NCBI GenBank assembly: GCA_023078685.1
Contig: JALGAS010000010.1
Coordinates: forward strand, 930,001 to 994,000
Length of the DNA stretch: 64,000 nucleotides
DNA from: Neopestalotiopsis rosae
Taxonomy: Eukaryota; Ascomycota; Sordariomycetes; Amphisphaeriales; Sporocadaceae
Direction: 5' to 3'
The translations under genes and the position numbers were made by a program. Shown here piece after piece: positions 9,701 through 41,140 of the stretch. The notes below the pieces were generated by a model that saw only the letters and a list, made by a program, of their open reading frames with translations, searched no databases and was not told the origin of the DNA. How positions within the stretch are numbered: the stretch's first letter is position 1; every line of letters begins with the position of its first letter.

Positions 9701-10550
9701 CGGTCTCGCAAAATACGTACCTCTTTTTCTCTCGTCTCGTCTCTCTCTTCGCGTGGTGGCTCACCTCTGCTCAATTGCCTTGAGACAAGCAGGGCCCCTA
9801 CACACGACCCTAGGGCCCCTCCACACCCTTCTGTCGGGACGCAACGCACTTCTGGATTTGCGCATACATGTATGATGACCTCCTACATCTTGGACAACGC
9901 GCCACGCTCCGCAGAACTCCGTTTGAACACGGCCCAAACTTTTGTTATACTACCATAATCCCAAATGCTCTGAAAGCTGTCTGCATCCCCCAAACGCTAT
10001 TAGGCGTCTCAGTCACTACTACCCGGTTCTCCTGCTGATCCCCAATCAGCCTTCGACCAAACGTTGCCCCATGTGGATACGAATAGCATCACCAAGCTGT
10101 CACGGCGATTACCATCCTTGAGGAGCTGCCACTGTTACTGCTACTACTACTTTTGATCTACACCAGACCTACCACCTATTACTACTCACCCTCCCTCTTC
10201 TAATCAGAAGATCTATCTCGGCAGGGATCATATCCGTCCAGCGCATTTCAGTATCTATGCTATTAACAGACTACTCGACGCTCTTCCTGTCTATCCTAAT
10301 TCATAGCCGTCATTGCCACTGGTCAACCATATTACTAGGGACAGGTTCGAAATAAGCTTGCATACATCCTGTGGTTTGGCATCATACATAACCGAGGAGC
10401 ACCAAATTGGGTTGTCTGCATCTGCGGTCTTGCAATCTACATAACATATATATTTTTTGAGTTGATCGGATATACGTGCATCGTGGCGCAGATATTAGGC
10501 CTCGACTCTAGCATACCTGGCACAAGGGCTTGGGTGCCAAAATCACTTTC
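3740..10550. other. 6.8-kb stretch without a recognisable gene
   Basis: All six frames are broken into short ORFs. The longest plus-strand ones (5723-6199 and 9449-9958) start at GTG, have no recognisable domain and no persuasive splice partner. I saw no transposase, reverse transcriptase or terminal repeats, only one short imperfect hairpin near 7122-7183. A possible TATA-like AAATATAAG near 8975 precedes an 88-codon ORF at 9106-9372 that I cannot assign. The last kilobase is CT-rich and probably the promoter and leader of the LON/RING gene. Decayed transposon DNA or long regulatory spacer are both possible. Confidence 0.5.
7122..7183. repeat. imperfect inverted repeat (hairpin)
   Basis: The arm at 7122-7143 begins ACGGCTGGC and the arm at 7165-7183 ends with its exact complement GCCAGCCGT. 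The inner parts pair with small gaps, leaving a loop of about 20 nt. It may be a remnant of a small inverted-repeat element or chance; no target-site duplication was identified. Confidence 0.35.
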
Positions 10551-12290
10551 ATGTCCTCAGCTCAGGCACGCAACAGCCCGCCGATACCAGCGTCGTCTAC
10601 GTCGTCCCGAAGCCCCACGTCTCTGTCTTCGCGCTCCGAGAAGAGTGACACGCCGGTAGGGAACCCGGTAGGCACCGAGGATGTCGCCGCCGCCTCTGCT
10701 CTCCTCTTGAGCGGCGCCAAGGACGTTCGGGAGATTATCAGGCTGGTTCAGTGCGGCGTCTGTTCTCGCATCTTGCATCATCCTACTACCTTGTCCTGCG
10801 GGCGTAGCTGTTGCCAAAGCTGCATTCCGCCAACCTACCTACGAACCAACATATCCTGGCCCGCTACCGCCAACCGCCTCTATGGCTTCAAGTGCCCCTA
10901 TGAGGAGTGCAAAAAGGAGCACGCGATTGGAGATTGCAGTGTAGATGTCACCCTGAACAAGGTTCTCGACATCATACGTACAGTCGTGGAACGGGATCGC
11001 GAGGTTACGCTGACGCAGAATGTATCAACTCAGATTGTCATCCTCGATCAGTGGACTGTTGCAGGACTGTCGCCGATGGAAGAAAAAGGCGTCACGTCAC
11101 AAGTTATTCAGGGCAGGCGAATCGTATCGACTTACACCTTGGCCGAGAATGGGAAGCTGGATTATAAGTGCGAGGTCACCTATACTGCCATTGGGGCGAC
11201 CGAGGAGGAAGTAAGTGAAGGCGATGTGGCTGCTTTCACCAGCTTGAAAGAATCGGTGCGCACGGAAATGGATTGCCAAATCTGTTATGCGCTGTTCCTC
11301 GACCCAATTACAACGTCATGTGGCCATACCTTCTGTCGGAATTGCCTGAATCGGACTCTTACTCACTCAGAGCACTGTCCTATCTGCCGGCGAACGCTGT
11401 CTATTCAACCACACGCACCCTCTGGCTCCGCGCCATCGAATCGACGTCTGACGAAAATTATCAATGGATTCTGGGCGGACACAATTGCGGTACGAGCACA
11501 GACAGTCCGAGTCGAATTACAAGCCGAGCTAAGCGGCGAGTTTGATATTCCAATTTTCGTCTGCACGCTCTCATTCCCGGCCATGCCGACATTTCTACAT
11601 GTTTTCGAGCCCAGATACCGAAGAATGATACGACGAGCCATGGAAGGGGACCGCACTTTTGGTATGGTGCTCGGCTCGGCAACAACTGGCCCCGATGGTC
11701 GCAACTTTTGCGAGATCGGAACTTTGCTTCGGATTGTTAATATCGAATTTTTCCCCGATGGCCGGAGCCTGTTGGAGTCAGTTGGTATCTCACGTTTCAG
11801 AGTTCTTCGACATGGCGTGTTGGACGGCTATGTGGTAGGAAAAATTGAAAAGATTGATGATGTCAGTCTAGCTGACGAGGAGGCTATGGAAATTTCCGAG
11901 ACCATGAATGGCCAGGGTGTTCGGGATTTCATTCAGTCCAGGAGCGAAGAGCCAACAAATGCCACCGATCAGGATCCGCCCCAACAACTGGAAGAAGCAA
12001 ACGTGCTTACTGTCGAGGACCTTGAGACCAAGTCTACACGCGAACTTTTGGAGATTGGTATTACTTTTGTCACAAAGATGCGCGCACAGAGCGTGTCTTG
12101 GTTGACCGCACGAGTTTTGGCAGTCTTTGGGGAATGCCCGAATGATCCTGCCTTGTTTCCCTGGTGGTTTGCCAGTGTTCTCCCCGTGAGCGACGAAGAG
12201 AAGTACCGGCTACTTGGAACGTCTAGTGTTCGGCAGCGCATGAAGATCTGCTGCCGGTGGATTGTTGAATGGGAAGCAAGCAGATGGTGA
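10551..12290 (+). CDS. RING-RING-LON substrate-binding domain protein (LONRF-like E3 ligase)
   Basis: A single 579-aa frame from ATG 10551; the in-frame codons just upstream contain no ATG. After a Ser/Pro-rich N terminus, residues about 68-115 hold a first, somewhat divergent RING (CGVC, then a Cys-rich LSCGRSCCQSC, then CPYEEC). Residues about 242-285 hold a canonical C3HC4 RING (CQIC, CGHTFCRNC, CPIC). Residues about 335-560 form an ATP-dependent-protease LON N-terminal-type domain, including FPAMPTFLHVFEPRYR and a Trp-rich C terminus. The architecture matches LONRF proteins, probable RING E3 ubiquitin ligases whose LON domain binds substrate. The final codons read ASRW then stop; a GTGAGC immediately before the stop could act as a donor, so a spliced extension cannot be excluded. 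It converges with the Clr5 gene. Confidence 0.87.
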   Translation: MSSAQARNSPPIPASSTSSRSPTSLSSRSEKSDTPVGNPVGTEDVAAASALLLSGAKDVREIIRLVQCGVCSRILHHPTTLSCGRSCCQSCIPPTYLRTNISWPATANRLYGFKCPYEECKKEHAIGDCSVDVTLNKVLDIIRTVVERDREVTLTQNVSTQIVILDQWTVAGLSPMEEKGVTSQVIQGRRIVSTYTLAENGKLDYKCEVTYTAIGATEEEVSEGDVAAFTSLKESVRTEMDCQICYALFLDPITTSCGHTFCRNCLNRTLTHSEHCPICRRTLSIQPHAPSGSAPSNRRLTKIINGFWADTIAVRAQTVRVELQAELSGEFDIPIFVCTLSFPAMPTFLHVFEPRYRRMIRRAMEGDRTFGMVLGSATTGPDGRNFCEIGTLLRIVNIEFFPDGRSLLESVGISRFRVLRHGVLDGYVVGKIEKIDDVSLADEEAMEISETMNGQGVRDFIQSRSEEPTNATDQDPPQQLEEANVLTVEDLETKSTRELLEIGITFVTKMRAQSVSWLTARVLAVFGECPNDPALFPWWFASVLPVSDEEKYRLLGTSSVRQRMKICCRWIVEWEASRW

Positions 12291-13275: not shown

Positions 13276-15232
13276 CTATCGAATGCTGGGTACCTGCGAT
13301 GGACTTGGCAAAGTGATGCTGCAAGAGCTTGAAAATATTTCACTCAGGAAACTCATCGAGGAGGGATTAGAACCGTACTGGGAATAAGTCATGCTCGGAG
13401 TAGAGCGCACGGTACTAGACCTGTAAGATCCTCTCGCTCGATGGGATGCCATTGCCGTGGAAGCGTCCCTGAGCCTGCCATAGGAAGAATCGGAGGAGGC
13501 GAGAGACGGAGCCATGGTTGGCGCACAGTACGAATATATCGGCTTGGCCATTGGAACAAACTCATGGATCGGAGTAAGTTCATAAATTGGAGCCGGTACC
13601 GGTCCAAGAATCGGGGCCAGTTCGTGAGGGTGACGGTGTCTACTGATATTCAGGACGGGCTGTTGGGGTATCTCGACTCTCTCGTAGAGAGCCTGGATAT
13701 ACAGCGTAATTGCATCGTCGCTCTGATAGAACTCTTGGGACTTTGTCGATCGAGTAAGGTCAATGACCTCGGCACATATATCGAGGTGCTCCGCGAGAGA
13801 TACTCCAAAGTCATCCTGTTCTGTTGTCCAATCCGGGGATATTGGAGCTCCTGAATCACCCTCATGCCACATTCGCCATAAATTGACAAAGGTGCCCTTT
13901 TGATACGAAGTATTTGTGCTGCATAGAATTGAAGACTCAACATGAGCACTGGCCTGTTGACACCAGTGTAGACTCTCTTTCAGATCTTGCAAAAGGTAAG
14001 CCGATCGTGACACGTGATCGTCATGTTGCATCGAAAAGAAATTCATGAAGTCTGTATGGCTGATCGACGATTTGTCCTGGGGATTGGAGGGCGATGAAAA
14101 TTGCAATCGTTTGTAATAAACATAGGCGAGTAGATAAAGCGAGACAGAACTCGAAGGATCTCGTTCACTCTTCACTGCCTCCGCGAAGGATTGTGCTAAT
14201 GACATATGGGCAGACGTTTTGTGAACTTCTAGCAATCCCAGTTGTGAAGACAGCTTAGCCGAAAGAATATGGGATAAAAACTGCTCAACCAATGACTGCG
14301 TTCGCCGATGGGGTTGATGTAGGACTGCTGACAACATGTTCCGCACAAATGTGCACTCTTCTCTTGATCGTGCTGCCCTCGCACTCAATATGAGAGACGT
14401 CGTACAGTAATTGTTGAAAAAGGCGCCGCGAGACTGTTCGCTTGATATGAGGGTAGAATATAGACTAGCAGCTTCTGAGAATTCTTTCATAACGAAGAGA
14501 TAGCCGGCGGCGACCCTCAAGCAATTTTCAGTCTCGATCGATGAGCTTGAACCTCGGCCAGGCTTGACTGACTCTGCTATCCTCAGGCATGACTCAATGT
14601 TGAGGCTTTGGGAAAGAGGCTGTCCCGGAGTGTTTGGCTGTGTCACAGTTGACTGCACAGTAGGCTCGGACAAGTCTCCTTCTTGCCGAATATGCAGAAT
14701 ATCCAACTCCTGGTGTTGCCTTGGATTTTCAGGCGAAGCGTCGTCATCAGTAACGGTGAGAGCTGAAGAGCCACTCCTCTGCCTGGATATCGCAGGATCG
14801 AATCCCGTAATTACAGAGGTTTCGCCTTGGTGGAGTGACAGTTGCTGGTCGTCCATTTTGAGCCTCTTGACAAACGGCCTCTCTTCTCGATCGCATATGG
14901 GTAATAGGTTAAGGTCCATCTCCACGACGTGGAAACTAGTCCTCTTGGTTTTGTACTTTTTAACCCCCCATCGCTCTAGACGGGCTGTGTATTGTCGTGG
15001 GCTAAAAGGTGCGCATTAGGCTTGTCGGTACGTACGGGAGCCTTGCGAGGGGAACATACGTTGCTTCGAACCCATGAATGCGTTTCATTTCTGCTGCCAA
15101 TTCCTCCAGCGTCATGGAAGGGTACATTCTCCGAATCTCTGGCTCGTGTTGCTCCCAGATTTTGTCTGAGATCTGTCTGGCCTTTGCCCTCTTTGGGCCA
15201 CTGGCCCATTTCACTTCCACATCCGCGGGCAT
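13276..15232 (-). CDS. Clr5-domain protein
   Basis: Exon 1 runs 15232-15060 and exon 2 15001-13276, separated by a 58-nt intron (GTATGT...TTTTAG on the minus strand) and joined in phase 2, giving 632 aa. The intron cuts the Clr5 domain. Exon 1 supplies W-E-x-H-x-x-x-I-x-x-x-Y and GFEAT; exon 2 supplies P-R-Q-Y-x-x-R-L-x-x-W-G-V-K-K, so the spliced product restores the full motif at residues about 20-75. Clr5 domains are fungal N-terminal modules named after an S. pombe silencing factor and occur in many Pezizomycotina proteins. The middle (about residues 190-330) is helical with TPR-like A-A-x-x-Y periodicity (inferred), and the last 120 residues are Pro/Ser-rich and disordered. It is probably nuclear; the role is unknown. 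Confidence 0.8.
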
Positions 15233-16452
15233 GATGGTGCTATATTATCGCTCTAGATTCGGCCGTTCGTTGAAGTACCCGAAAATAGCTGTAGTAAGCT
15301 TCTAACCTATAGGCTTGTGCGCATGGAACCTTTCAGGAAGCGGCTGCTGAACTACACTGTCCTGAAATTGAAGGCGAAAAAAAAGGCATGCATAGCATTT
15401 GAGCCTTGAAATGCTGTCGAGGTGATCGGAACCTGTATATAAGTAATATGACAATCAGACTTGATTTCACTTGGAAGTTCGAGGGGGCTAGTTATCAGGC
15501 TGGGCGCCATGCAGGCGCTGCATGTATGCTATGTGAAATTCCAATGACCATTCTCGGACTAGCGTTGGATGGACCAAATGCCAAGTCTAGCACATGACGC
15601 GGTCTGTTCCCTTCTGCTGGGGAAATGGATAAGGCCACCAAGGTGGGATTAATGCTAGAGCTCGCTGAGCAGTTCGGGGAAGTCTGCTCATCTCTTGTAG
15701 CCATCTATAGAATTTCTTTAATGTGTCCCTTGATGCTGTTGCCTTTCCGGTATTGAAGAACGATAAAGGAGCGAATGAGGGAACACCAACATTTTTTACT
15801 AATGGAATTGATGCGGCTAATCCAGGCGCGTGGTCAATTTTTGGCTGCTTTCGCTGTCATCTATTGCCAAAGGTTTGGGCATCCGCCAAAGCTGCAATAT
15901 TGTACTGTGATCGATGGATCTTCGAACTATACTAAGCCAAATACGGTCTTTGGGATTTCCAATGTTTCCCTATTGCGAGGCACGTTAGTATGCTGGCCCG
16001 TCATCGATCATTTGACTATACAATGTTCTTGAAAATATACCACCAACTTGTTGCCAAGCCATGCTACGTCTCTTATTCGCCACATTATCAGAATTGGCTT
16101 CTGAAACTTAGTGCCCGTAAGTCAATGTCCGACAGCTACGAAAGTCTAGCCACGGCACTGACAAGCGGTGTCGAATTGCTTGTGTCGAATCATGAAGTAC
16201 ATTACGACCCGCCTGATCCACATGCTTTTTACAAATACCTCTTTGGGTCATTGTAAATGCAACCAACCGAGGCAATTGGCGCTTTTGACAAGTTATGATC
16301 ATGACTTACTATAGGAACGAGGAAAGAGATGCGCCCGGGACGCCATGACATACACAGACCCAGGTTGCCTTCCTTTTACCTGCTTCAAGGCTGGAGCCTT
16401 TGGCGTGCTGGAATGAACGGCCAATTCAAGTACTGAGGTTCGTTGACAGATC
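15233..16452. other. gene-poor entry into the orphan-gene island
   Basis: Several overlapping short ORFs (for example 15775-16032, 15990-16256) have protein-like composition, but no frame joins them through good splice sites and no family is recognised. They may be remnants of a decayed gene. Confidence 0.4.
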
Positions 16453-16459
16453 TATAAAT
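16453..16459 (+). promoter_or_regulatory. TATA box of family copy A
   Basis: TATAAAT, 181 bp upstream of the ATG at 16634. Copies B and C have TATAAAA at 177 and 178 bp, so position and sequence are shared across the family. Confidence 0.55.
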
Positions 16460-16633
16460 GTTCGGGTTTGGACACCGTCAAGATTGTGGAGGCGTTATCT
16501 TGAGGCAGCCTGTCTTCTAAATCAATCTCCATCTATTCCTGAACATCGCGACACTATTGTGGAACTGTGTCAAAACACCAGAATTACTTATATGTATGGT
16601 GTCATATCAGGCGCTTCATAACCAGCCAGTATC

Positions 16634-17013
16634 ATGTCGAAGAAAAACAACAATAAACCTTCTCGCCGAGCTCATCGTGGTCATCTTGATCATGATCTTG
16701 CTTACATAGGTTCTTGGCCCAAAGACACAAGCTGCGGGCCTGAAGTAAGTAGTTAGTTGCCCGATAGTTACACGAGAACACTGGTTACTCACGTTGACAG
16801 AAGCAGGATTCTTCACTAGCAGTGACAGACATTATCGAGCTGCCACAAGTCCTTAACATGCCAGCATCAAAAGAAATACCACGCTCAGGCATTCCGGCAA
16901 CGCCTTTGAGTCAGAACTACCAGATGGAACAGTGGGAGAAAGAGACTCGGAAGGAGAGTTTTTGGACTCTAGCACAAACCACCACTGTCACAACTCAAAG
17001 GCACAGACCGTGA
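16634..17013 (+). CDS. orphan small-protein family, copy A (GSW/WxxET family)
   Basis: Exon 1 16634-16744 and exon 2 16801-17013 join in phase 0 across a 56-nt intron (GTAAGT...GACAG) to give 107 aa. Exon 1 ends with the family motif HDLAYIGSW plus nine residues. Exon 2 has a variable Ser/Pro-rich half and then the conserved QMEQWEKET...ESFWT. No signal peptide or membrane segment is evident; the C-terminal motif could form an amphipathic helix with spaced tryptophans. I recognise no known domain. The gene model rests on the same exon structure, intron phase and motifs recurring in copies B and C, and on a TATA box at matching distance. A minus-strand orphan gene (17183-17713) lies tail to tail with it. 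Function unknown. Confidence 0.72.
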
Positions 17014-17182
17014 GCAGTCAAGAATTGGTACAACTACAATATTCCTGTCAAGGCCATCAGAGCGAGACGCGACGAATACTGACCATGATGCAGTCATCAC
17101 CAGCTATGTTCCATGTTCCCTTCCACTGCTTCGGCGATGTCATGCACAGACGTGCTATCACACAAGGTCTCTCAAGTTCGCG

Positions 17183-17713
17183 TCAAGAAGCCCAGTCTCG
17201 CTCCTGCTGAACCATCAAAGTGGCGCTTGGCGCCCCGTTGAATGCGAAGCCCCGCTGAAGCCCCCAGAAGATGAACCAGAGGACTTTGAAGACGATTCCA
17301 GGGTCGGTGTGAACGTTTTCTCTTCCGAGTACCTTTTCAAACTCTCCACCTAGACCAGCAGAAGCGAGGGTTCGGATGATATCATTAAAATCCTGTTCGC
17401 GTCTCCTAGGGTTCGGGAGATCTGAGGTCAAATCTTTTGCACCACGCTCGTCAGACTGTTGCATGAAAATTGCTACATCTGCATCTCTGCTATCTTTGCT
17501 TTGGATGTTGATATTTGTTGCTTCAGTCAAATGGCTCACCATTGCGATAGTTAATGCTTTTCTCATGCTGTATTTCCGAAGGTCGCACTACTCAAATCTC
17601 GTTGTTTTCTGGATACCTCTCACGTAGTTTGTCACCTGCTCAACTATGTACTGTTCATCTCTCGGATTTTCCGTCCGCATCCTTTCATAGATCGTCTGAG
17701 GCTGAGGTGGCAT
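17183..17713 (-). CDS. orphan protein with C-terminal hydrophobic helix, partner of copy A
   Basis: Tentative three-exon model: 17713-17624, 17567-17540 and 17472-17183, with GTGAGA and GTGAGC donors and CAG/TAG acceptors, giving 135 aa. The last exon is the best supported part: an open frame with a charged stretch, D-F-x-D-I-I-R-T-L-A, then T-D-P followed by a hydrophobic segment (GIVFKVLWFIFWGL, about 25 residues before a short tail). The order D-x-x..L-A..L-G..D-P..hydrophobic helix recurs in the minus-strand ORF beside copy B, so a second paired family is suspected. An alternative is an unspliced ORF from an ATG at 17566. It converges on copy A with 169 bp between stops. Function unknown. 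Confidence 0.42.
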
Positions 17714-18473
17714 TGATGCTGATTAATTCTTCCCACGAAAGCGCTCGTCCGGCATGCACCTTCCAGTCCTAATGTGGCGTGCTGTGTGTGTTTTGATACC
17801 ACGGTCTGCAGTTCAGCTTGAGTATGGAATGCTACATCAGTATAGTATGCTAGCAACTCCTTTCGCAGCAAGACCCTTTCCACCATTTTGAAATGTCCAG
17901 CGGAGCAAGAAAAAGTGCGAGGTGATGATATAGGTTGAAGTAATTGACTTATGTTATTATTGATTCATAGGGTCGATGTTGGTAAGCCACTGGATGTATA
18001 CTCAAGTTGGTCTGTGCCCCCGAGGACTAGTCGGCCTCCGGCACTTCTAGGGACCAAGGCCTATCTTTCCCACCTTTGCATAACATCAGATCACAATCTC
18101 AGCCGTACCATCAGCATAAGCTGGTAGGAATGTTCTTTTCGGTGTGTTGGCCTTTATCCCACGTACACGTACTTGCGGCTCTCCCATTCCGCCCGCGGTC
18201 CAGCGGGTCTTGCGCCGACCTGTATTAGACTGCTAATTACTGAATCCGGTAAGTATACCATAGTCGGTATGGCGACCCCCAAAATGATTGGCTGTCAAAT
18301 CTCACAGAACGCATCTAATCATGCAAACAAGGAATCTTGTCCTACAAGAGAAGAGCAGCTCTGGTATGATAATGCTTCCGCGCCACAAGACAACACCTTG
18401 ACCGGGCCTCCGAGATAGATGAACATGAAGAATTGTGCCTTTCGATCGCTAATAGTTCAAATTGCCTTGCGCA
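17714..18473. other. spacer upstream of family copy B
   Basis: No convincing gene. The short ORF at 17644-17886 (-) overlaps exon 1 of the preceding orphan in another frame; 18173-18418 (+) has no recognisable features. Confidence 0.4.
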
Positions 18474-18480
18474 TATAAAA
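18474..18480 (+). promoter_or_regulatory. TATA box of family copy B
   Basis: TATAAAA in GCGCATATAAAATC, 177 bp upstream of the ATG at 18651, nearly the same spacing as copies A and C. Confidence 0.6.
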
Positions 18481-18650
18481 TCTCGATTCCCATCTCAATC
18501 TAAGATTTGGAGGCCGCGTTTGAAACATGCTGAATTGACAGACCAAGCAATTTAATCAACTTTTATAGCAAAAAGACCCCTTAAACACTGACTCAACCAT
18601 TCATATACGTTGCTAGCCTAACTGAACCAGAAACTTCCCAGTTTGTCATT

Positions 18651-19012
18651 ATGTCAGACAAAATCGGCGACACGCTCTCAACCCAAGTCTTCCACGGTGA
18701 TTTTGAACATAACATTGCGCATATCGGTTCGTGGATCAGCAATGGATCCAATGTAAGTAGTTGGCTACCATGACTCACCATATCGTAAGTAGCCAGCAAC
18801 TTATGTTGTCACAGAAGAACAGTCCTACCCCTACAACAGGAGATCTGGTCGAGGGGCCTCGGCAGTTCAATCCATCGGCGTTCTTGGTAGGAGTGAAGCA
18901 AGAGATTGCGCCGAGAACGCCCTGCCAATCTGATCAAATGAGTCGTTGGGAAAAGGAAACCATTAGGGAAAGCCCTTGGACTTCCTTACATAATTCTCCA
19001 AACCAGAACTAG
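18651..19012 (+). CDS. orphan small-protein family, copy B
   Basis: Exon 1 18651-18752 (34 codons) and exon 2 18815-19012 join in phase 0 across a 62-nt intron (GTAAGT donor, GTCACAG acceptor), giving 99 aa. Exon 1 carries EHNIAHIGSW followed by ten residues, and exon 2 ends with QMSRWEKETIRESPWT plus a short polar tail. The variable middle is Pro/Thr-rich. Sequence between the two motifs is almost unconserved with copies A and C, so the motifs are probably the functional parts and the duplication is old or fast-evolving. The 3' end overlaps the minus-strand ORF 18986-19165 tail to tail by 27 nt. No signal peptide is seen. Function unknown. Confidence 0.73.
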
Positions 19013-19165
19013 GGTGAGGAGCGTGAGCACATAGTAAGCCGGGTCAATTTCGCCTCCATCTCCTTCCTCAATGCCAAGAGCAAAGCTACCTAGGTAGTCA
19101 ACTAGGCTGATACCAGCCAGATTCTTCAGGTCAACGTCAATTTCTGAAGTTTGGTCTCGTCGCAT
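18986..19165 (-). CDS. small orphan protein with C-terminal membrane helix, partner of copy B
   Basis: A 59-aa frame from the ATG at 19165 (an upstream exon is possible). It reads basic start, DVDLKNLAGISL, a Gly/Asp/Glu loop, then I-D-P and a hydrophobic segment AYYVLTLLTLVLVW ending in two or three residues, like a tail-anchored helix. The layout resembles the minus-strand gene next to copy A (L-A..L-G..D-P..helix). It overlaps the end of copy B by 27 nt on the opposite strand. I recognise no family; the ORF is short enough that coding status is uncertain. Confidence 0.38.
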   Translation of the reverse strand: MRRDQTSEIDVDLKNLAGISLVDYLGSFALGIEEGDGGEIDPAYYVLTLLTLVLVWRIM

Positions 19166-20864
19166 ACTCTCCGTCGGACGGATGAATCGTGGCAAGCATC
19201 AATACACTCTCCGCACATCGCAGAACTGCAGATACCTTCTTTCGCTCCACCACGCCCTGGTTTCCTTGCGGATCACAGTCTCACAGCCTTATCATTCTCT
19301 TTCCTTTCGCCAGTCCTTTGTTTTACATTCTTTTCTTTCCTCATCTATATATACATATATACATTTTCGCAATAAAGAAAATTCATTTGAGAGGATAGAG
19401 AGAAAGGGCGGGGTCTTGATTCGACTTAGTCTCCCAGGGTGGAAAGATGCTGAACCAAGGTGATTTCATCTCACTTGCAACAGGCATTCAGAAGCCAACC
19501 CCCCAATGAAGGGAAATGACGATAACAACGCATTTCGGGAATCCGGGGTGCGGTGAAGGCAAGATTGTGTGAACATGGTGTTAATTGTGCTTTCTCGAAA
19601 GTTCAGCAAACCAGGAGACATACATTGTCGTCGAATAATACGATAGGACAAGTAGAGGGAATTCGCAGCCCCACAAATTATAGCAAACAGACTCATGTTT
19701 AAGAGCAACTTTTACTCATACAACTACCCGACTTAGATGTCTGACTCATTTGTTCAATTTGAGAAGATGTACAATCAAGAGCGCAATATTTTTAGATACG
19801 TTTCCAGAATCAAGTATATTGAAGAGCTGTCACTGTGGTGAACACTTCTCAAACACGAAGTGGCCTTTTGATAACAAAGTGTGCGCTTGATCAGCCTGAG
19901 GATTGTGCAGGTGGATCTTAAGTTTAAGAATGGACCATGTTTCGTGCACTGCGCTCCAAGCTACCGTCCCCAGGTTGAGCGTCAAATAGACGTTATGGAT
20001 CGTTGTTAGTGGTATAAGATCCAAAGTATTTGATTTATGTACTTGATCTATGCGTGTCCTGAAGATTCCGTTTGATGCTGAATCCTCCGGGTACGGGCGC
20101 AATTTGAACGAAAGTGCAGCCAATTTGCGAGTACGGTCCGACAATTACCGAAACATAGATACAATTAGGTGACTCGTGACTCGTATGGCACCTGTTCATG
20201 AAGCATCATCTCTGGGAAATCTTTGAAGAGATATAACGAGATAAGTCTTCAAATGAAGAGCTGAAATTCCGGGAAAAGAATAGTGGTCGATGGGGTTGGC
20301 AGGGACGGTTTGCTGCTGGACATCTAACTTTCGCACATCGGCAAAACGCGGAGGATAATGTTCGCATTCAGCTCTTACTTGAATGTGATGCCCCGCTGGT
20401 CGATTTTGTAGGGTTGAGACTGGGAAAAAAAAAGCTATCAATCGCTCAGAGATAGTGTCAAGAGAGCTCAAATATCATGGTCTCGAACAAGTACTAAGAC
20501 CTGGTTACCTCATTTTTAAAACAATCTAAGGATAAAGTCATGATATTTTGCGCTCGAATTCATTTCAGAATGATTCTAAGCTACGTTGACTTGCAGCTTT
20601 TGAAAAGCGTTGGGCAAGTTCCAATGCCTCGTGGGCAGTTGTCGTGTTCGGCCGCACACCTCTCGGCACAATGCATCGGAATTCGCTCCAGGTCGCATTT
20701 ATTCACCGAAGGATTTGAATTCTTCTTGACGAATCGAAGTGCGACACGTTCCGTTCCATGTAGGGAATTTATGTTATCCGGTGGTACACTCTCACGTCGA
20801 TCAACGCCCACCACTTCGGTAAGCCCTGGAAGATGGCCATGTCAGGCATGAACCGGCTTTCGTC
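19166..20864. other. spacer within the orphan island
   Basis: AT-rich, with a TA dinucleotide-rich patch (about 19345-19362). Minus-strand frames at 19830-20144 (no ATG) and 20196-20471 are open for about 90-100 codons but lack recognisable motifs. I see no further GSW-family copy. Confidence 0.4.
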
Positions 20865-20871
20865 TATAAAA
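20865..20871 (+). promoter_or_regulatory. TATA box of family copy C
   Basis: TATAAAA in CGTCTATAAAAGAGC, 178 bp upstream of the ATG at 21043. An upstream ATG at 20877 would lie at or just before the expected transcription start. Confidence 0.6.
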
Positions 20872-21042
20872 GAGCAATGTCCGCTGCGAAGCACCCGACA
20901 ATTTCGTTCTCCTTTGCTAAATTTTGTTGCATTCATTCCCTATTCCACATCTTCACCACCAAACACCGGCGATTGTGTTCGAGAGTGCCAAAACCTTTTG
21001 CGCGACATTGAAGAAAGGTTTTGCGCAACGACCTGCATCATT

Positions 21043-21425
21043 ATGGAAAATGTGAACAGTCCACTGAGACAGCAAACCCTTCAATGTCATATTAATGACC
21101 TTGCGTTTATCGGTTCGTGGACTAGGAATACATGCTTCACGAATGAGGTGAGTGGTCAGTTGGCAGAGAATTTGTCGATGCTCTTCGTTCGCTTATCAAT
21201 ATATCAAATAAGAGCACCGCCCCAATTATGGAAGATGCTGTCAAGATGACAGCGATTCCAAATGTACCGTCAGCAATGAGGATTTATCAATCAGATTTTG
21301 CGACAGAGATTTCGCATGAAAGTTACCAGATGGAGCGTTGGCAAACAGAAACTGCGAAAGAAAGTTCATGGACTTCTGCGCACGTTTCTTCCGAGAAGGT
21401 TGATAAGAGGAATGATAGTAGATAG
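21043..21425 (+). CDS. orphan small-protein family, copy C
   Basis: Exon 1 21043-21147 (35 codons) and exon 2 21213-21425 join in phase 0 across a 65-nt intron (GTGAGT donor, AAATAAG acceptor), giving 105 aa. Exon 1 has HINDLAFIGSW plus ten residues, and exon 2 has SYQMERWQTETAKESSWT and a polar, basic tail. Exon lengths, intron phase and both motifs match copies A and B. A near-duplicated TTTTGCGC motif sits in the leader at about 20997 and 21020. No membrane or export signal. Function unknown; the gene could also be read as a single ORF from the ATG at 21228, which would lose the GSW motif, so I prefer the spliced form. Confidence 0.73.
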
Positions 21426-22776
21426 TTGTAAACGAGGATGATCACAGAATTCCTGTACAGAAGTTTCGCTTGTGGAAAAGTTTAAGATGATACGGAATCG
21501 AGATATTGGTATTGCACTGCCGCTGCTATAAGTCTTGAACAAATGAGTGATATCCTACCCCGCTGTTTAACAGCTTGATTTTGAAATTCATACGAGCTAC
21601 AAAGTGTATCCGTCTTGTCTCAATTAAGAGAATGGGGACTTCAATGAAATCATATCATCGATGAACGTCTGTCTACAGATTCCCGAATGATCAGTTGACT
21701 GAAAGCATAGAGTCAGCCGAAGAGGTTGTTCTAGTATCCTGTGCGCTTATTCTTTTTGGTTCACCTCCAGCTCTAATCATCCGTATCGCATCCAGTTCAT
21801 CACTGCAAGATTTCAACGGCCCGTGGCCCGTGCGTCCGTACTTAGATAGTTCGTAGGAGGGTTGCACTGAAGGTTAGTCCTTCAGCGCAACAACAACGTA
21901 ATACACAGACCCTTACAAAGATCTTCTTCATTGTGCATTGATGAAATGCCCTCCAGAGAGCCAGTCTGCTCGAAAATTTAAGCTTTCAATATATTTGGCG
22001 GAGACGTATGATTTTGTTGAAATTGTACGTATTAGTGTACGTGAATGCGACTGAGGCTGTGAGCTGGTAATTCCACGCGCCCGGCATACGCGATTGAGAT
22101 AATCGCATGGATTTGGAACTTGTGGGTTGCTGGCTTCGCTCGACGCATCGATGTGCGATATTCCAGTATGTGAAGCTGGAAGCAAACCATGATTGGCGGG
22201 TCGTCTGTGACAGAGTTGAAGATTTGCTTTTGGCTCGGCTAGTGACATCCTTTCTTTCGGCCAGTAAGCATGATCTTCAAATCATTAACATCGCTTTAGG
22301 GCAACCCATTCCGCCAACGGTAATTATAGTATGTAGGGGGACTATACCAGATCGAGAATGAGCTCCAGCGAATTGCCCGGCTAGTCGACAGCAGTTAAGC
22401 TGAGGGACAATTTTCTGTCAAGTTCATAAAACGTGCTTTCAAAAGGTGACGATAGGGAACAAAAGCAATAATGACAGTATGATTATGAAGAGAGAAAGAG
22501 GAGGACGATTCTTGGTCTGATGCTACGGCTTCCTGGAGATGGACGGTTCTAACCTAAAAGAGACACACCACGGGGAACAGGATGGATCATGTTTATATAT
22601 GGAAAAGTTACGTGCTCCTCATGAAGCTATTTGCATAATTATATATTTGTCTGGAATTGCAGTCAACCCTGAGAAATCGTTTGGCAAGCGGAACTCTGTC
22701 ATTGGTTCCCCAGCCGAATATTTATCGCTCCTTGTCCCGATCCTGGCTCGATGCGGCCGTGGCGATAGTCCGCGGG
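21426..22776. other. spacer with decayed repeat
   Basis: No supported gene. It contains the left copy of a diverged direct repeat (about 22190-22390). The frames 21928-22248 (-) and 22539-22796 (+) have no recognisable motifs; the latter is antisense to copy D. Confidence 0.4.
22190..22390. repeat. diverged direct repeat, left copy
   Basis: This ~200-bp segment aligns by eye with 24530-24730, sharing blocks such as GGCTCGGCT-GTGACATCC, ACATCGCTT/GCATCGCTT and the CCAATTGCC/CGAATTGCCCGG end, in the same order and orientation. On the minus strand both copies can be read as related short peptides sharing A-G-x-x-x-G and P-x-A-M-L, but the left copy has no intact surrounding ORF. It indicates segmental duplication in the island. 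Confidence 0.5.
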
Positions 22777-23090
22777 CTATCTTTGAGGCTCTCTAGCTGC
22801 CACAGTACCTGACCGTGATCCTGATTGGTGTCTCTCGATTTCTACGTGAGGAGTTTTGTTTGGTGTCGATGCAGTGGGATACCTGGGTAGTTCGCTGGAG
22901 CTCTTTGAAAGTGAAGAGGTATCATGTGTCTATAGTACGGTGAGCCTTTGTGACCAGTTGCGAAGCTATCATGTAAGACATCATTTACCTGGTCACCATG
23001 AGTCGAGTCCCAGACCCACGAACCGACGTGAGCTAGGTCATGATCAATCCGGTCTCGTTTTGAGAGAGCATCTTTGGTGTTCTCTGACAT
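22777..23090 (-). pseudogene. orphan small-protein family, copy D, inverted and apparently decayed
   Basis: Exon 1 (23090-22989, exactly 34 codons, phase 0, GTAAAT donor) is a clear family member: DHDLAHVGSW plus nine residues. Splicing to 22902 gives an open frame of 41 more residues to a stop at 22777, 75 aa in all, but this frame lacks the C-terminal motif. A remnant of that motif (WQLESLKDSPRT) lies at 22802-22767 in another frame, with the second conserved Trp changed to Arg (CGG). I read this as a frameshifted pseudogene; an unseen splice could still rescue it. A TATATA lies near 23281-23286, about 190 bp upstream of the ATG. Confidence 0.6.
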
Positions 23091-23607
23091 AATGATGGGG
23101 ATGAGTAAGAAATAGGTACTATGAGTTCGACCAGGAAGTGGGTGAATTTGAAGATACTATTCTCAAATTGTCACGATGTAACTTTGAAAACAGTGGGACA
23201 CATGCGATCACCTGAAGCTTGCAGAAGATATTGCCACCAAGAGGAAAAGCATCGAGAAGTAAGGCAGCGAGGAAGTCCAATATATAGACATTCAACGGTG
23301 TCCAGCATTGGTCAATTTGGCCTCAAGCAACCTGCTGCATGGTCTCAGTGCTTGAGGCGTAGTCGTTCTGTAAGTGGTGCGTCTAAGTGACCTTCAGCAT
23401 GGCTTGTTGCTGTCTCCATGGTAATCCGTCGAGCCATGAGTTCGTCTTCCAATTTCCCCCACTTGACGATGTAGGGTATCTGATATCTCACATAAGTCTA
23501 CATATACTTCACAGACCACGTATCGGCAAATGCATCCGATTGGCCAGCGAGCAGAATCCCCAATTCTAGGAGACGGTGTGCACGCGCTAGGGCTTCACCA
23601 AAAGCAG
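23091..23607. other. spacer between copy D and the 130-aa orphan
   Basis: Only short, unconvincing ORFs; it includes the probable promoter of copy D. Confidence 0.4.
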
Positions 23608-24085
23608 CTACGTATTGGAAATACAGCCATCGCATCGAGAATCTGGACACAATGGGCAGGCCATGTGCGCTTTCAGTCTCTCAATAATGATTTTCAAAGG
23701 TGATGGCAGCTGATAAAATATGCAGCTATTGCTTGTGTTTCGTTCTGTCGGAGAGCTGCTGACATGCGTCTGCAGAGATCAAGGCGGCAGTGCATAAGCG
23801 ATAAATTATAGTCAAATCAGAAAAAAGGAAGTGCAGTTCGTTTAACCCACTTACGTCGCGCATCAGAGATGGCTTGACGAAGAACTTTTGTATACCAATT
23901 GATTTTGGTTTATCAAGCTCTAATCCCGATGTTAAGGCAGGTTGGGGGCCAGGGCGTTTAAAGACCTCCATGGCATGGCCGTGGGTAAGCAATGCACAAC
24001 AACGCCCGACCACTAACGGGAGGAGGAGGAAGTAATAAGCGAATTTTCCATTCTCAATCAAATCGGACGGAATACATCGCATCAA
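23608..24085 (-). CDS. orphan two-exon protein, N-terminal hydrophobic segment and Cys-rich tail
   Basis: Exon 1 24085-23855 (77 codons) and exon 2 23769-23608 (53 codons plus stop) join in phase 0 across an 85-nt intron with GTAAGT and TCTGCAG sites, giving 130 aa. Residues about 14-32 are a strong hydrophobic segment (YYFLLLPLVVGRCCALL) that could be a signal anchor. The middle is basic and Pro-rich. The tail has LKIIIERLKAHMACPLC followed by CxxxCDGC-like spacing, a possible metal or disulphide cluster. I recognise no family. Support comes from consistent phase across good splice sites, not from homology. Confidence 0.45.
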
Positions 24086-25126
24086 CCATTATACAATCCA
24101 CATCCATTAACACAACGAATGAAGTCCATTTATGACATACATACGTAGGCTGACTCTGTTGCATTTCCCCTTCACCATAATGCTTTTTGTATTAGGCAAA
24201 CTTGATCTTTATGACTCCACTGGAGTCCGCTAGAATAAAATTGAGAATTTTCGTCTGCGTATTTATCATTTGCAACCGCTCTTCATCAGGACAATAGCTT
24301 TTCCTATGTATGAACATTGCCGTGCCTTTTCAAGCAGGTTTACCATCTACATACTCTTGAGAGCAGGGGAATGACACTCCCTCGCGATGGAATCATCGCG
24401 CAAAGCTCAGGAGAATCTGGTCTCCATGTGCCCTCATGATCAAGGTAATAACTGTTTGTGTCTCTTCGGTTTGTAGTTTGGCGATGCTGTAGCATGTGAA
24501 GTCTTTATGATCTACATCAGTTGGGTTGGTGGAGCGTCTGTGATAGAGGTTTATAAGCCTTTGGGCTCGGCTCGTGACATCCTCTCTATGGGTCCAGTGA
24601 ATGCGACCCAGAGTTACATTTACAGCATCGCTTGAGGACGATCCGTGCCCGCAACGGCAGTTAAGGTGTACGGTTGGACACTGAGCACCGGATTAAGTAT
24701 GGAGCCTAGCCAATTGCCGGCCTGGATGACCGGGGCCAAGCTGGGCAACTGGGGGTCGCTACCCAAAAGCAATCGATCTCCGCGTTTAGTAGAAGAGGGG
24801 ACCATGCTATTCTCATCTTTCTGCTACAATACCGTCACAATGGGTCTACTACCGGCAAGGATATATTTGGTACGGTCACAACTCTTCCGCTTATCAGGTC
24901 GCATGCTCGTACGTGAGATGGTCACAGTCAAGCCTTTTAATGCGACGTCTTGATATGAAGAGCGGTCGACTGTAACCGATGGAACTATGTGATTTTACCC
25001 AGACCAATTTGACATAAAGCGCCATGTCTGCCCTCGAGACGTTTTATGAATTTCAAATCATGCTACACATTCTTAATCGAAAGTCCGATTAGCGAAGTTG
25101 TCCCGCTAGCAAAAACAGACGCCACG
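24086..25126. other. spacer with right copy of the diverged repeat
   Basis: No supported gene. The minus-strand frame 24620-24805 (61 aa) overlaps the right repeat copy and has an acceptor-like sequence just upstream, so it may be the last exon of an unrecognised gene; coding status is uncertain. Confidence 0.4.
24530..24730. repeat. diverged direct repeat, right copy
   Basis: Right-hand partner of 22190-22390, same orientation, about 2.3 kb away. Here the minus strand keeps a short open frame (stop at 24620) containing QAGNWLGS and RPQAML. Confidence 0.5.
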
Positions 25127-26228
25127 ATGCTACCCTTTGTGTTGCTTACCTTCTTGGGCCTCGCCAGCCAGGCTTCGGCAGCAACATGGTACTTCCTACG
25201 ATACTATACGCCGTCCGGTGCTAAGTTCACCTCCTTCTCGGGAGAGATGGTGATTCCCGCTTTGCCACAAGCAGGCACTTACTATCTCTGGCCCGGATTG
25301 CAGCCGACCGACAACAGTGGCGTCTATCAGAATGTACTTGACGGACGAAGTGGCACTTGGTGGATCGGATCTGGATGGTATGCGTTTTATTCTTTTACCT
25401 GAACAATTAGTCTCTACAACAGACACTTCATCCACACAACCCAGTCCGAATGGGTATTTTCGGCGCACTAACATTGCCATAGGTGCTGCAGTAACCCAAG
25501 TCTGCCCTGGGGCAGCGGTTTCAACACGTATGCCGGAGAAACCGTGACTTTTAGCAATACTTGTACGTAAACCATCTAAAGTTCTCATCACCAACATCGA
25601 TGCATTTGAAGAGTGATCACTGCCTTGAAACCCGAGGGGTGGATGCAAGAGCCGCCAGCTCATTACCTCACAATCGTACTAGCAGACGAAACAGAAAGCT
25701 GACATCAAATGTAGTGTCAAGTGACAACTCTGGCTGGACATCTACTCTCACGAGATCGGCCAATGGAGCGAGCGTCACCGACAACTTCGCATTAGGTGAG
25801 TTCGGAGAGAACAATTTCACTTCTGTTGGAAGACAGTTTTCACTAATATATATGATATTAGCCGATAAATCTTTCAACCAAGTCTTATTTGCAATTGAGC
25901 TGTGAGTTACCCAGTTCGCATTGCGCGAAAAGTCAATCGACATGTACTAATATTCACTCACAGGACCGGCGTGAGCTGGGATTTTGGGCAACTCGCTTTC
26001 AAGAACGTCAGAATTGTGAGCTCAGTCCTTATCATATTGAACACATGTTACGAATGCTGACTATTCACCTTGCAGACAAGCACTGGAACCGATTCCAGTT
26101 GGTGCACTTCGAGCCCTGAAAACTACAACAGTGCTACCACCTACTCCATCAGCGGCGTCAAGGCCAGTGTCAGCGGCAGTACTGTCACTTGCACGATCAG
26201 CTCCGTGATTCTGCAGAAGCCGGCCTAA
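25127..26228 (+). CDS. secreted protein of unknown fungal family, six exons
   Basis: Exons 25127-25377, 25483-25562, 25715-25795, 25862-25901, 25964-26015 and 26076-26228 all have GT-AG borders and keep frame throughout, giving 218 aa. I prefer the ATG at 25127 to the in-frame ATG at 25046 because it gives a clean signal peptide (MLPFVLLTFLGLASQASA, cleavage after ASA). The mature protein begins ATWYF and is rich in Ser, Thr, Gly, Trp and Tyr, with a Cys pair in exon 2 and two Cys in exon 6. Short beta-strand-like alternation suggests a jelly-roll or ConA-like fold (inferred). It is probably an extracellular or wall protein; no catalytic motif is recognised. Five introns in 657 coding bases is dense for a secreted protein of this size. 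Confidence 0.72.
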
Positions 26229-26967
26229 GCAGACGTCTGCTTCTAGAAATTCTTTGTCCTGGAGGTTTTGCTAGCATCGAAACTCATTGCTTTTGGTGAT
26301 TTTGCTGTACTGAATCTATTTCACAAAGTCCTGAACCTATCTCTAATGCGATCTGCGGTGTATGCGGTTGCTACGAAGTGATTTTCGTCTACTAAGGACC
26401 CATTGCCGTGTCTATAATAAGTTACACCATAGATGTTGTGCTACCATATCTCCAGCGGGTTTGGCGGGGCACGCGGTTGAACCCCGCTATTATAGCACCA
26501 CTTTCAGGACTCGCCAGAACATTCGAGTACAACAACACTAAAGGGCAAGAGAATTGACTATCAGTGTTATAATGCTCTCTTGCCATATGATATACATAAA
26601 ATAATAAGCTTTGAAAGATGGGAATAGATAACAATCTAAGTATGCTCGGTGCATGCGCCAGTGTGGCACGGCTAAGACATGCTAGGATCATTGCCTCTTA
26701 CTAGACATAGGCCCGGTCTCAGCTGGTGCCTGGCCTAGCGCTAAACGTCAGGTTCACATATAAATGCGCCAGACTTGTCAACAACATCAATCATCGTTCT
26801 CTTGACTTCGAAGGAAGTGAATCTTGGCCTTTTTAATTTTCATCATCTCAAAGCCGGTGCTTCTGCTGGTGTCTGTACGGAGCCTGTATCACTGAGGTTT
26901 GGACTCTAAATCATTGAGCTCGGGGGCAAGTCCGCAGGCGACAAACTTGTAGGCGAGCATCGCCAAA
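26229..26967. other. intergenic spacer
   Basis: 3' flank of the secreted-protein gene and promoter of the RING-YEATS gene. I see no ORF of note and no clear TATA box. Confidence 0.5.
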
Positions 26968-27945
26968 ATGAGTTCTGTCAGCACACGAGATGCCAGAGCT
27001 GCTCGACGAGCCCGGCGGGATCAGTCTTCTAGGCAAAGCAATTCAGGTCCTGCACGGCTACGCTCTGATGTCACGCCGAGGAGCCTTGGTGATCAGCCCA
27101 ATCAAGATGAAAATGGTGAGGAGGTGGGAGAAGACGACCTGTGTCCCATCTGCCGCCTTCTTCTTCACGAACCAGTGACTACCACGTGCAATCATACGCT
27201 CTGCGAGTTCTGCATGGCGCAGTGGGCGTCAGTATCGCTGGCAGCCCCAATGACCATTGTGGACGTTGACGAGGAACCTGTCGAGTTCGACGCTGTATCA
27301 GAACTCGAGGCGAGATGTCCAATGTGCCGGACTATGACCACGGCGACGGCAAATCCGACCCTCGCACAGGAGCTCAAGTCAAAGTATCCACTGACTCACG
27401 GCGAGCGAGAGGCAGAGGCACAGGCAGAAGCCGACGGCCTCGGTGGGGATGCCATTCACACTATTACCGTGTACATTGGTAACCGCCACACCCAGGTCCC
27501 GGGGTCGCCAGGCTCTCCGCACAATATACATGACTGGACCTTCTTCGTGAAACCGACTAGGAACGAAATCATTGAAGAAGTTCACATCTTTTTGCATCCG
27601 ACCTTTCGCCAGAACCGCATCGTCAAAACGCGCCCGCCTTACCAGATCTCGCGCGTGGGCTGGGGTACCTTTGGCATCACCGCGTCTGTGGTGCTAAAGG
27701 CGGGGTACTCTTGGGTCTCGGACGACGCCCAAGATTCTCCGGATGGCGCGGCAAAGGGCGTCTTGCCCCTCGAGTGGATGTTGGACTTTGAGGGCTTTGG
27801 CGGAAAAGGCAGCATGGGGAGGTGTCGTCTCAAGGTCAAGAATGATCGTGACTGGGATCGTGTGAGTGAGGAGGCGGAACGAGATCAAAGAGAGTTGAGC
27901 AGGATGGTTCGCCAATATGAACAAGATGGAAGGTATGAACCATGA
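26968..27945 (+). CDS. RING-finger plus YEATS-domain protein
   Basis: A single 325-aa frame starting at ATG 26968 in a CCAAAATGAG context. After a basic, Ser/Arg-rich N terminus, residues 59-123 form a C3HC4-type RING (CPIC, CNHTLCEFC, then a long acidic insert, then CPMC). Residues about 165-300 match a YEATS fold: H-D-W-T-F-F-V, EEVHIFLHPTF, PPYQISRVGWGTFGI and a terminal strand set. The GWGxF segment is the acyl-lysine reader signature. The tail is a charged helix. YEATS proteins (Yaf9, Taf14, Sas5) read acylated histones, while RING domains recruit E2 enzymes; here they sit in one polypeptide, suggesting a chromatin-directed ubiquitin ligase (inferred). The gene is intronless. The minus-strand neighbour converges on it. 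Confidence 0.82.
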   Translation: MSSVSTRDARAARRARRDQSSRQSNSGPARLRSDVTPRSLGDQPNQDENGEEVGEDDLCPICRLLLHEPVTTTCNHTLCEFCMAQWASVSLAAPMTIVDVDEEPVEFDAVSELEARCPMCRTMTTATANPTLAQELKSKYPLTHGEREAEAQAEADGLGGDAIHTITVYIGNRHTQVPGSPGSPHNIHDWTFFVKPTRNEIIEEVHIFLHPTFRQNRIVKTRPPYQISRVGWGTFGITASVVLKAGYSWVSDDAQDSPDGAAKGVLPLEWMLDFEGFGGKGSMGRCRLKVKNDRDWDRVSEEAERDQRELSRMVRQYEQDGRYEP

Positions 27946-40725: not shown

Positions 40726-41140
40726 GTTAAGAAGAGCAGAAACTAGAGTTCCCACCTGTTGTAGCGGGGCCTTTTAGGTGGTACCTCACTATCTCTTTTT
40801 TTCGCTTTTCACTCTTTTTTTTTCTCGCCCACTGCGCTTTCGTCGCTGCGACTACGGGGCCCGCAGTAGCTCGTTCTCTGGCGCTGGGCGACCAAATAAG
40901 TCAGAAGCATCATCCATGCAACGTTGACAAGCGCGGCATTCACCCAACATCCCACTACGACTACTTCGTACCACTACTATTATTCCTGGACATAAGCTGC
41001 TACTGCTTTTGTTCATAACCAAGCTCTCAGCCACGGACCTTGTTTCGCCAACCTTGTTCTCCATTTTCGACATTGTCCATACTTGGTCAAGAAAGCAATA
41101 GGGACCGCCTATTGTTTTGTTGTTGTGATTCAGTTCTAGC

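Follow-up and report, generated by a model that had tools for sequence, protein, structure and literature searches.

Judged by likeness of form, the nearest functional analogues of the proteins described here are probably small disordered inhibitors of enzymes, with Hug1 and Spd1 as examples. The yeast inhibitors of ribonucleotide reductase (RNR) include the intrinsically disordered Hug1 and Spd1, SML1 and HUG1 are neighbours via duplication, and short binding regions are separable (PMC4245953). The same source gives R29, G37 and Y38 of Hug1 as the invariant residues of the Hug domain, and GMR(I/V)R(K/Q)(S/A) as a feature of Dif1-type proteins. Here we describe five related proteins of 73-108 residues each, c1 to c5, that form a family in the fungus Neopestalotiopsis rosae. 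Four of the genes (c1-c4) lie within 6.5 kb of a 64,000-nucleotide stretch of contig JALGAS010000010.1 (assembly GCA_023078685.1, positions 930,001 to 994,000), hereafter the window, and the fifth lies on another contig, C5. The genome searched comprises 53.77 Mb in 17 contigs, the window being bases 930001-994000 of contig C2. These proteins resemble Hug1, Dif1, Spd1 and Sml1 in their small size and weak overall identity, and the disorder of Hug1 and Spd1 and the duplicated SML1/HUG1 neighbours add to the likeness. They differ in having other conserved blocks, without Hug sequence features. That they are themselves RNR inhibitors of the Sml1/Hug1/Dif1/Spd1 sort, i.e. small disordered binders from local duplication, could be argued because both groups are small, disordered, duplicated and only weakly alike in sequence (PMC4245953). 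However, the Hug domain features looked for in c1-c5 are missing: GMR is absent from all five, GY is absent from c1-c4, and the single GY of c5 has no Arg at -8. We regard this explanation as very improbable.

In the four clustered genes, a first exon of 34-37 codons carrying [IV]GSW is followed by an intron and a second exon. The introns (56, 62, 65 and 147 bp in c1, c2, c3 and c4, respectively) are every one phase 0 and GT..AG. The family was defined by an [IV]GSW exon (N block), a phase-0 intron and an exon with QMxxWxxE[TS]xxESxWT (C block). All of these are present in c1, c2, c3 and c5, and, on the protein level, in the orthologue described below. In c4 the exon layout is present and the C block has decayed. 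The gene models are listed below, with window positions unless contig C5 is named.

16634..16744, plus strand: c1 exon 1, 37 codons; N block HDLAYIGSW at 16691-16717
16745..16800, plus strand: c1 intron, 56 bp, gtaagt...ttgacag
16801..17013, plus strand: c1 exon 2, 70 codons and stop; C block QMEQWEKETRKESFWT
18651..18752, plus strand: c2 exon 1, 34 codons; N block HNIAHIGSW; same exon in the orthologue
18753..18814, plus strand: c2 intron, 62 bp; exon join that of the annotated orthologue
18815..19012, plus strand: c2 exon 2, 65 codons and stop; C block QMSRWEKETIRESPWT
21043..21147, plus strand: c3 exon 1, 35 codons; N block NDLAFIGSW
21148..21212, plus strand: c3 intron, 65 bp, gtgagt...aaataag, weak acceptor
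21213..21425, plus strand: c3 exon 2, 70 codons and stop; C block QMERWQTETAKESSWT
22989..23090, minus strand: c4 exon 1, 34 codons; N block HDLAHVGSW
22842..22988, minus strand: c4 intron, 147 bp
22722..22841, minus strand: c4 exon 2, 39 codons and stop; decayed C block QVLWQLESLKDSPRT
C5:368032-367922, minus strand: c5 exon 1, 37 codons, ending ..ILMQVGSWANDPKSQSE
between the exons on C5, minus strand: c5 intron, 58 bp, GT..AG, phase 0
C5:367863-367648, minus strand: c5 exon 2, 71 codons; C block YQMGRWAHESSAESQWT

A preliminary description of this DNA had named the loci 16634+, 18651+, 21043+ and 23090- as a family. Their coordinates, exon-1 size, GSW motif and phase-0 donors are confirmed, as is a second exon of about 65-70 codons in the plus-strand copies (70, 65 and 70 in c1, c2 and c3). 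Two details have to be corrected: the part of exon 1 after GSW is 6-9 residues long rather than 9-11, and exon 2 does not end in the WxxET block, which is followed by 14, 9 and 16 residues in c1, c2 and c3. The second exon had been given for the plus-strand copies alone; it is indeed found in c1-c3, but c4 has one too, with a decayed motif. A tandem family is what the four copies in 6.5 kb form, but with c5 unlinked on contig C5 the family is not purely tandem.

That c1-c5 constitute a genuine gene family is, in our view, practically certain. With a profile built from c1-c3, all six frames of the window offered 91,488 places without a stop, of which the N blocks of c1-c4 were the top four (scores of at least 42.0, the next 24.7), and the C blocks of c1-c3 were the top three of 68,948 (71.7-76.7, the next 31.7). 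When each copy was left out of the profile in turn, its C block scored 59.0-65.5 versus 28.0-36.0 for the top non-member. In whole-genome searches the c1 query returned c3 exon 2 at E 8e-6 and c2 exon 2 at E 0.01, the c2 orthologue returned c1 at E 9e-4 and c3 at E 0.0012, and c3 returned c1 at E 6e-6 and c2 at E 0.003. Among the six pairs of c1-c4, none of 2,000 shuffles matched the observed score in five, and 49 of 2,000 did so for c3-c4. In c1, c2, c3 and c5 alike, the QM codon lies 242-248 nt from the point ten residues upstream of [IV]GSW. With a codon table built from neighbouring genes, the coding frame of each of c1-c4 is the top of the six. The introns of c1 and c2 agree at 14 of their first 17 bases (82%); the acceptor of c3 (AAATAAG) is weak, and its branch site is seen only as a loose CTTAT. 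Chance open frames, or non-functional remains of an old duplication, would fit the weak codon bias and the decay of c4. Set against the genome-wide E-values, the common splice layout, the orthologue, the unlinked c5 and the synonymous change in motif codons, such an origin is extremely improbable.

The orthologue is E8E14_006997 (P0001), a protein of 99 residues of Neopestalotiopsis sp. 37M, which is 95/99 identical to c2 and bears only a hypothetical-protein name. It was annotated independently, with the same exon join as c2. The substitutions (residues 16, 48, 54 and 55) all fall outside both blocks, which with four events is not significant. In the protein database it was the sole relative found, both with the full-alignment query (E up to 1, 26 candidates) and with the block-only alignment query (E up to 10, 1 candidate). 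This database does contain proteins of P. fici, Seiridium, Truncatella and Pestalotiopsis sp. NC0098. The family seems, as far as annotation shows, to be narrowly distributed. The absence of further relatives from the database is weak evidence, because a match there depends on identical words of five residues, very small genes frequently go unannotated and c5 was not among the queries.

No Pfam-A family was found above the curated cut-off for E8E14_006997 or c1-c5, the sole listing being Dynein_C at E 0.029 for one member. The search of PDB sequences gave no significant match; the best was Nup153 (E 0.12 and 0.32), which we discounted. Foldseek found no match for the model of E8E14_006997, a model too weak for this to mean much. 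The titles and abstract openings returned by literature searches held no account of such a family. Judged by these comparisons, the family is undescribed, in agreement with the preliminary description, which knew of no family with this pair of motifs. A lack of other homologues carrying both motifs would, by that description, have counted against it; E8E14_006997 and the unlinked c5 carry both. Its candidate undescribed system holds as an undescribed protein family, but is not yet a system.

The selection analysis used the c1-c3 alignment, with c4 and c5 left out. For the 25 motif codons, the ratio of nonsynonymous to synonymous proportions of differences (pN/pS) was 0.19, 0.17 and 0.46 in the three pairs, versus 0.70, 0.77 and 0.82 for the other 70-78 codons; these ratios are rough because pS is saturated (0.5-1.07). 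In a simulation placing the same number of base changes randomly (5,000 runs), the 17, 18 and 15 residues retained by the motif codons, versus 8.7, 11.5 and 11.2 expected, were reached in 0, 0 and 1.7% of runs. The linkers retain 14, 12 and 14 residues versus 11.2, 14.3 and 11.7 expected, which was reached in 18%, 85% and 23% of runs. Synonymous differences occur in 5/6 degenerate invariant codons of the C block and in 2/3 of the N block. By these sequence statistics, selection is shown to maintain the two blocks and not the linker, which appears to drift as if neutral. The selection on two short blocks with fast linkers that had been proposed earlier is borne out (0.17-0.46 in the motifs versus 0.70-0.82 elsewhere). 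The gene layout and two short blocks have persisted while everything else has diverged to saturation, which makes the important residues legible in the sequence and directly testable. Like other orphan, lineage-restricted small-protein families, c1-c5 are short, have no Pfam or significant PDB match and are found in few genomes. Unlike such families in general, they have an exon layout and two constrained blocks that outlast saturated divergence, and one unlinked copy.

Fast linkers, local duplication and restriction among annotated proteins could also point to conflict factors, such as self/non-self recognition, spore-killing or NLR-partner elements. The unlinked c5 moreover lies 3.1-3.5 kb from a NACHT-type gene:

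C5:362995-364140 (L030:296-1441), minus strand: NPHP3_N/NACHT gene, with an amidohydrolase gene between it and c5

However, the linkers agree with neutral drift rather than positive selection, and the amidohydrolase gene separates c5 from the NACHT gene; their proximity may be a coincidence. No NACHT match was present in the seven window open reading frames scanned, and neither a poison/antidote pair nor a clear second shared family was found. We consider such a conflict role unlikely.

Nine of the 16 C-block positions are invariant in c1-c3 (1, 2, 5, 8, 9, 12, 13, 15 and 16), and they fall on a single helical face. Their helical moment is maximal at 100 degrees, with an exact p of 0.00035 over all choices of nine from sixteen (0.0026 with the angle searched); with c5 included, eight positions are still invariant and p is 0.0019 (0.03 with the angle searched). 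This test covers 16 columns in three to four sequences, and the columns were picked from those same sequences. The AlphaFold model of E8E14_006997, computed with exon rows, has a mean predicted local distance difference test score (pLDDT) of 51, with 10 residues at or above 70; it has a helix at 72-86, and its top ten residues, 71-80 (74), lie in the C-block helix. For c3 exon 2 the mean pLDDT is 59.5, with a helix at 20-59 and the best part, 31-50 (70-78), across the C block. No stretch of c1-c5 has membrane-helix hydrophobicity, the top 19-residue mean being 0.78. By crude hydropathy of the first 35 residues, the top 11-residue mean is 0.03-0.91 in c1-c4 and 1.55 in c5. A role as host-directed effectors exported non-classically would fit proteins that are small, fast-evolving and clustered, in a lineage that includes plant pathogens (PMC13215550). 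But this crude hydropathy shows no signal-like stretch in c1-c4 and a mild one in c5, the proteins have 0-2 Cys, and the conserved blocks resemble interaction sites, which makes this improbable.

The pattern seen here, two constrained blocks (one per exon) joined by a linker that drifts, all in a small and soluble protein, is the one to expect if a protein binds at two points and folds upon its partner. Our preferred reading, to which we give a probability of about 0.45 from the sequences and models together, is that these are intracellular, largely disordered, tethered two-point binders acting as stoichiometric regulators. The proteins would stay intracellular and mostly disordered. The exon-1 hook [LI]-[AM]-x-[IV]-G-S-W would be the first docking point, and the amphipathic helix QMxxWxxE[TS]xxESxWT of exon 2 the second. 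Both could engage one folded partner, or bridge two, with the linker setting reach only. The likeliest mode would be regulation through stoichiometric binding, as inhibitor or adaptor. A more specific version, in which these are an undescribed class of intracellular regulators with two hooks, peculiar to Neopestalotiopsis and its close relatives, with a dedicated partner (possibly NLR-type) reading both motifs and paralogues differing only in linker and regulation, is distinctly unlikely to hold in full.

The two blocks could instead bind one another, so that the paralogues assemble into homo- or hetero-oligomers and another member serves as the folded partner. Both blocks, which are the constrained parts, are carried by c1, c2, c3 and c5, and a conserved helix face with two Trp fits self-association. 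On the other hand, a single annotated member was found in strain 37M, and its protein would thus have to self-pair unless others are unannotated there; we hold this arrangement to be quite unlikely. The end of the C block offers yet another possibility. The core of the Atg8-interacting motif is W/F/Y-x-x-L/I/V, and such a core is present there in c1 (FWTL), c2 (WTSL) and c5 (WTAV), as it would be in an autophagy-receptor-like protein. But c3 and c4 have no core anywhere, so it does not define the family, and the motif is short, loose and easily matched by chance. A common function in Atg8 binding is hardly probable.

The cluster copies would, in the two-point binder reading, be driven by TATA promoters. 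Each of c1-c4 has a single TATA[AT]A hexamer in the 400 bp 5' of the ATG:

16453..16458, plus strand: c1 TATAAA, 181 bp upstream of ATG
18474..18479, plus strand: c2 TATAAA, 177 bp upstream of ATG
20865..20870, plus strand: c3 TATAAA, 178 bp upstream of ATG
23281..23286, minus strand: c4 TATATA, 196 bp upstream of ATG

At random points of the 14-26 kb region, TATA[AT]A occurs at -150 to -215 in 4.1%, a range that was picked after the sites were seen. Position -3 is an A in each of c1-c4. No shared promoter 9-mers (one mismatch at most, 400 bp) were found, which says little because 20 shuffled sets also gave none.

Several observations weigh against the two-point binder reading, besides the saturated pS, the choice of TATA range and the narrow base of the helix test already given. 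The codon scores of c1-c3 are close to zero. In genome protein searches c5 was missing from the results for c1, the c2 orthologue, c3 and c4, and as a query it brought up none of the cluster copies, even with E allowed up to 10; membership of c5 rests on block, exon layout and pairwise shuffles, and its N block retains just L, [IV] and GSW. There is no TATA[AT]A in 400 bp upstream of c5, and this copy is mildly hydrophobic near its N terminus, possibly a secretion signal. The links of c4 are weak (60/2,000 shuffles with c5 and 49/2,000 with c3). The disorder call relies on low pLDDT from shallow alignments; in the c3 model the helix spans 40 residues, past the C block, and no segment of three or more residues is under pLDDT 50.

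The fifth copy was first returned by a C-block DNA pattern with one mismatch, and the profile scan then gave YQMGRWAHESSAESQWT at that place on contig C5. None of 2,000 shuffles equals its score against c1, c2 or c3, and 60 of 2,000 do against c4. Its C block retains eight of the nine positions invariant in c1-c3, the ninth being changed from Thr to Ser; this agreement is partly built in because the DNA pattern was derived from the block. The search pattern did not include QM, nor the exon with [IV]GSW, the length of that exon (37 codons) or the spacing. Such families are nearly invisible to annotation and protein search, one of the five genes having an annotated relative, and c5 escaped protein searches with its own paralogues and surfaced only by a DNA pattern.

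Further copies were looked for across the genome. The pattern TGG-GAR-GAR-TGG gave 26 matches versus 4 for the reversed control. Four are members (c1, c2, c3 and c5); the other 22 have no upstream [IV]GSW and score at most 34.2, or contain a stop. The excess over the control is not explained by membership, because just 4 of the 26 are members. CARATG..TGG..GAR gave 14 matches versus 2 for the control, four members and ten non-members, and none of these ten QM-W-E matches has an upstream [IV]GSW, one having LGSF at 77 nt. The N-block pattern gave five matches versus none for the control, four in the cluster and one on contig C15, the latter rejected since no C block lies within its 3 kb. The first two of these pattern searches, read match by match, gave no sixth member; a sixth, more diverged one may exist. 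An open frame with QQLESWETKDEHSSSWS (L005, C12:5622174-5622305, minus strand), returned at E 0.092 from c1 and weakly like the C block, is a doubtful candidate, no GSW exon having been found upstream. Weak listings of the genome searches on C15 and C13 are at E 0.7 and 1, and another candidate (L020) was rejected for low scores of both blocks.

In c4, an in-phase AG acceptor at 22843-22842 is followed by a 39-codon frame containing QVLWQLESLKDSPRT. This C block scores 25.7 on the c1-c3 profile, rank 5 of the 68,948 window places, and is outscored by one window non-member (31.7, at 41078); on the minus strand of 22500-22990 it ranks first of 245 places. The linker is shorter, and Arg replaces the second Trp of the C block. 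The c1 genome query found c4 exon 1 at E 0.093, just behind a non-member at 0.092, and the c4 query found c1 at E 0.045. We read c4 as a decaying copy, or as one with an altered, possibly re-aimed, binding surface.

The genes flanking the cluster are ordinary fungal genes:

10512-12287, window: RING-LON protein (Pfam)
13279-15015, window: protein with ANAPC3 at E 0.015, below cut-off (Pfam)
26968-27945, plus strand: RING-YEATS protein, both domains in one protein; many fungal relatives
30562-33555, window: BRCT protein (Pfam)

For the RING-YEATS protein, identity reaches 98% with an unnamed JGI protein, 87% with PFICI_11543 of Pestalotiopsis fici, 78% with Seiridium and 73% with Truncatella. 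When the convergent open reading frames beside c1, c2 and c4 were compared pairwise, 371, 262 and 24 of 1,000 shuffles equalled the score. A convergent partner gene family was rejected, clearly so for two pairs, the c2-c4 pair being borderline (24/1,000), and no second gene family common to the loci was found among these frames. The frame at 18989-19198 (minus strand), antisense to the c2 end, has a hydrophobic tail DPAYYVLTLLTLVL, and it is the one with this borderline likeness to the frame antisense to c4. Convergent to c1 there is a probable two-exon gene at 17186-17722 (minus strand), with MPPQPQTIYERMRTENPRDEQYIVEQ.. followed by a 134-codon open frame, this second part without Pfam match.

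Rfam gave nothing at gathering score in 15000-26500, and no tandem repeats were found in 9000-30000. A duplicated, seemingly non-coding stretch (22160-22330 and 24480-24660, plus strand) has most aligned bases alike, with indels. A genome search with its first copy (22160-22330) was insensitive, since only the query itself was returned and not the second copy. At 25127-25399 (plus strand), a stretch without Pfam match, a small protein begins whose N terminus, MLPFVLLTFLGLASQASA, is signal-like. Upstream of the cluster, a coding-looking open frame at about 15980-16257 (plus strand) ends ..DYTMFLKIYHQLVAKPCYVSYSPHYQNWLLKLSARK..YKYLFGSL.

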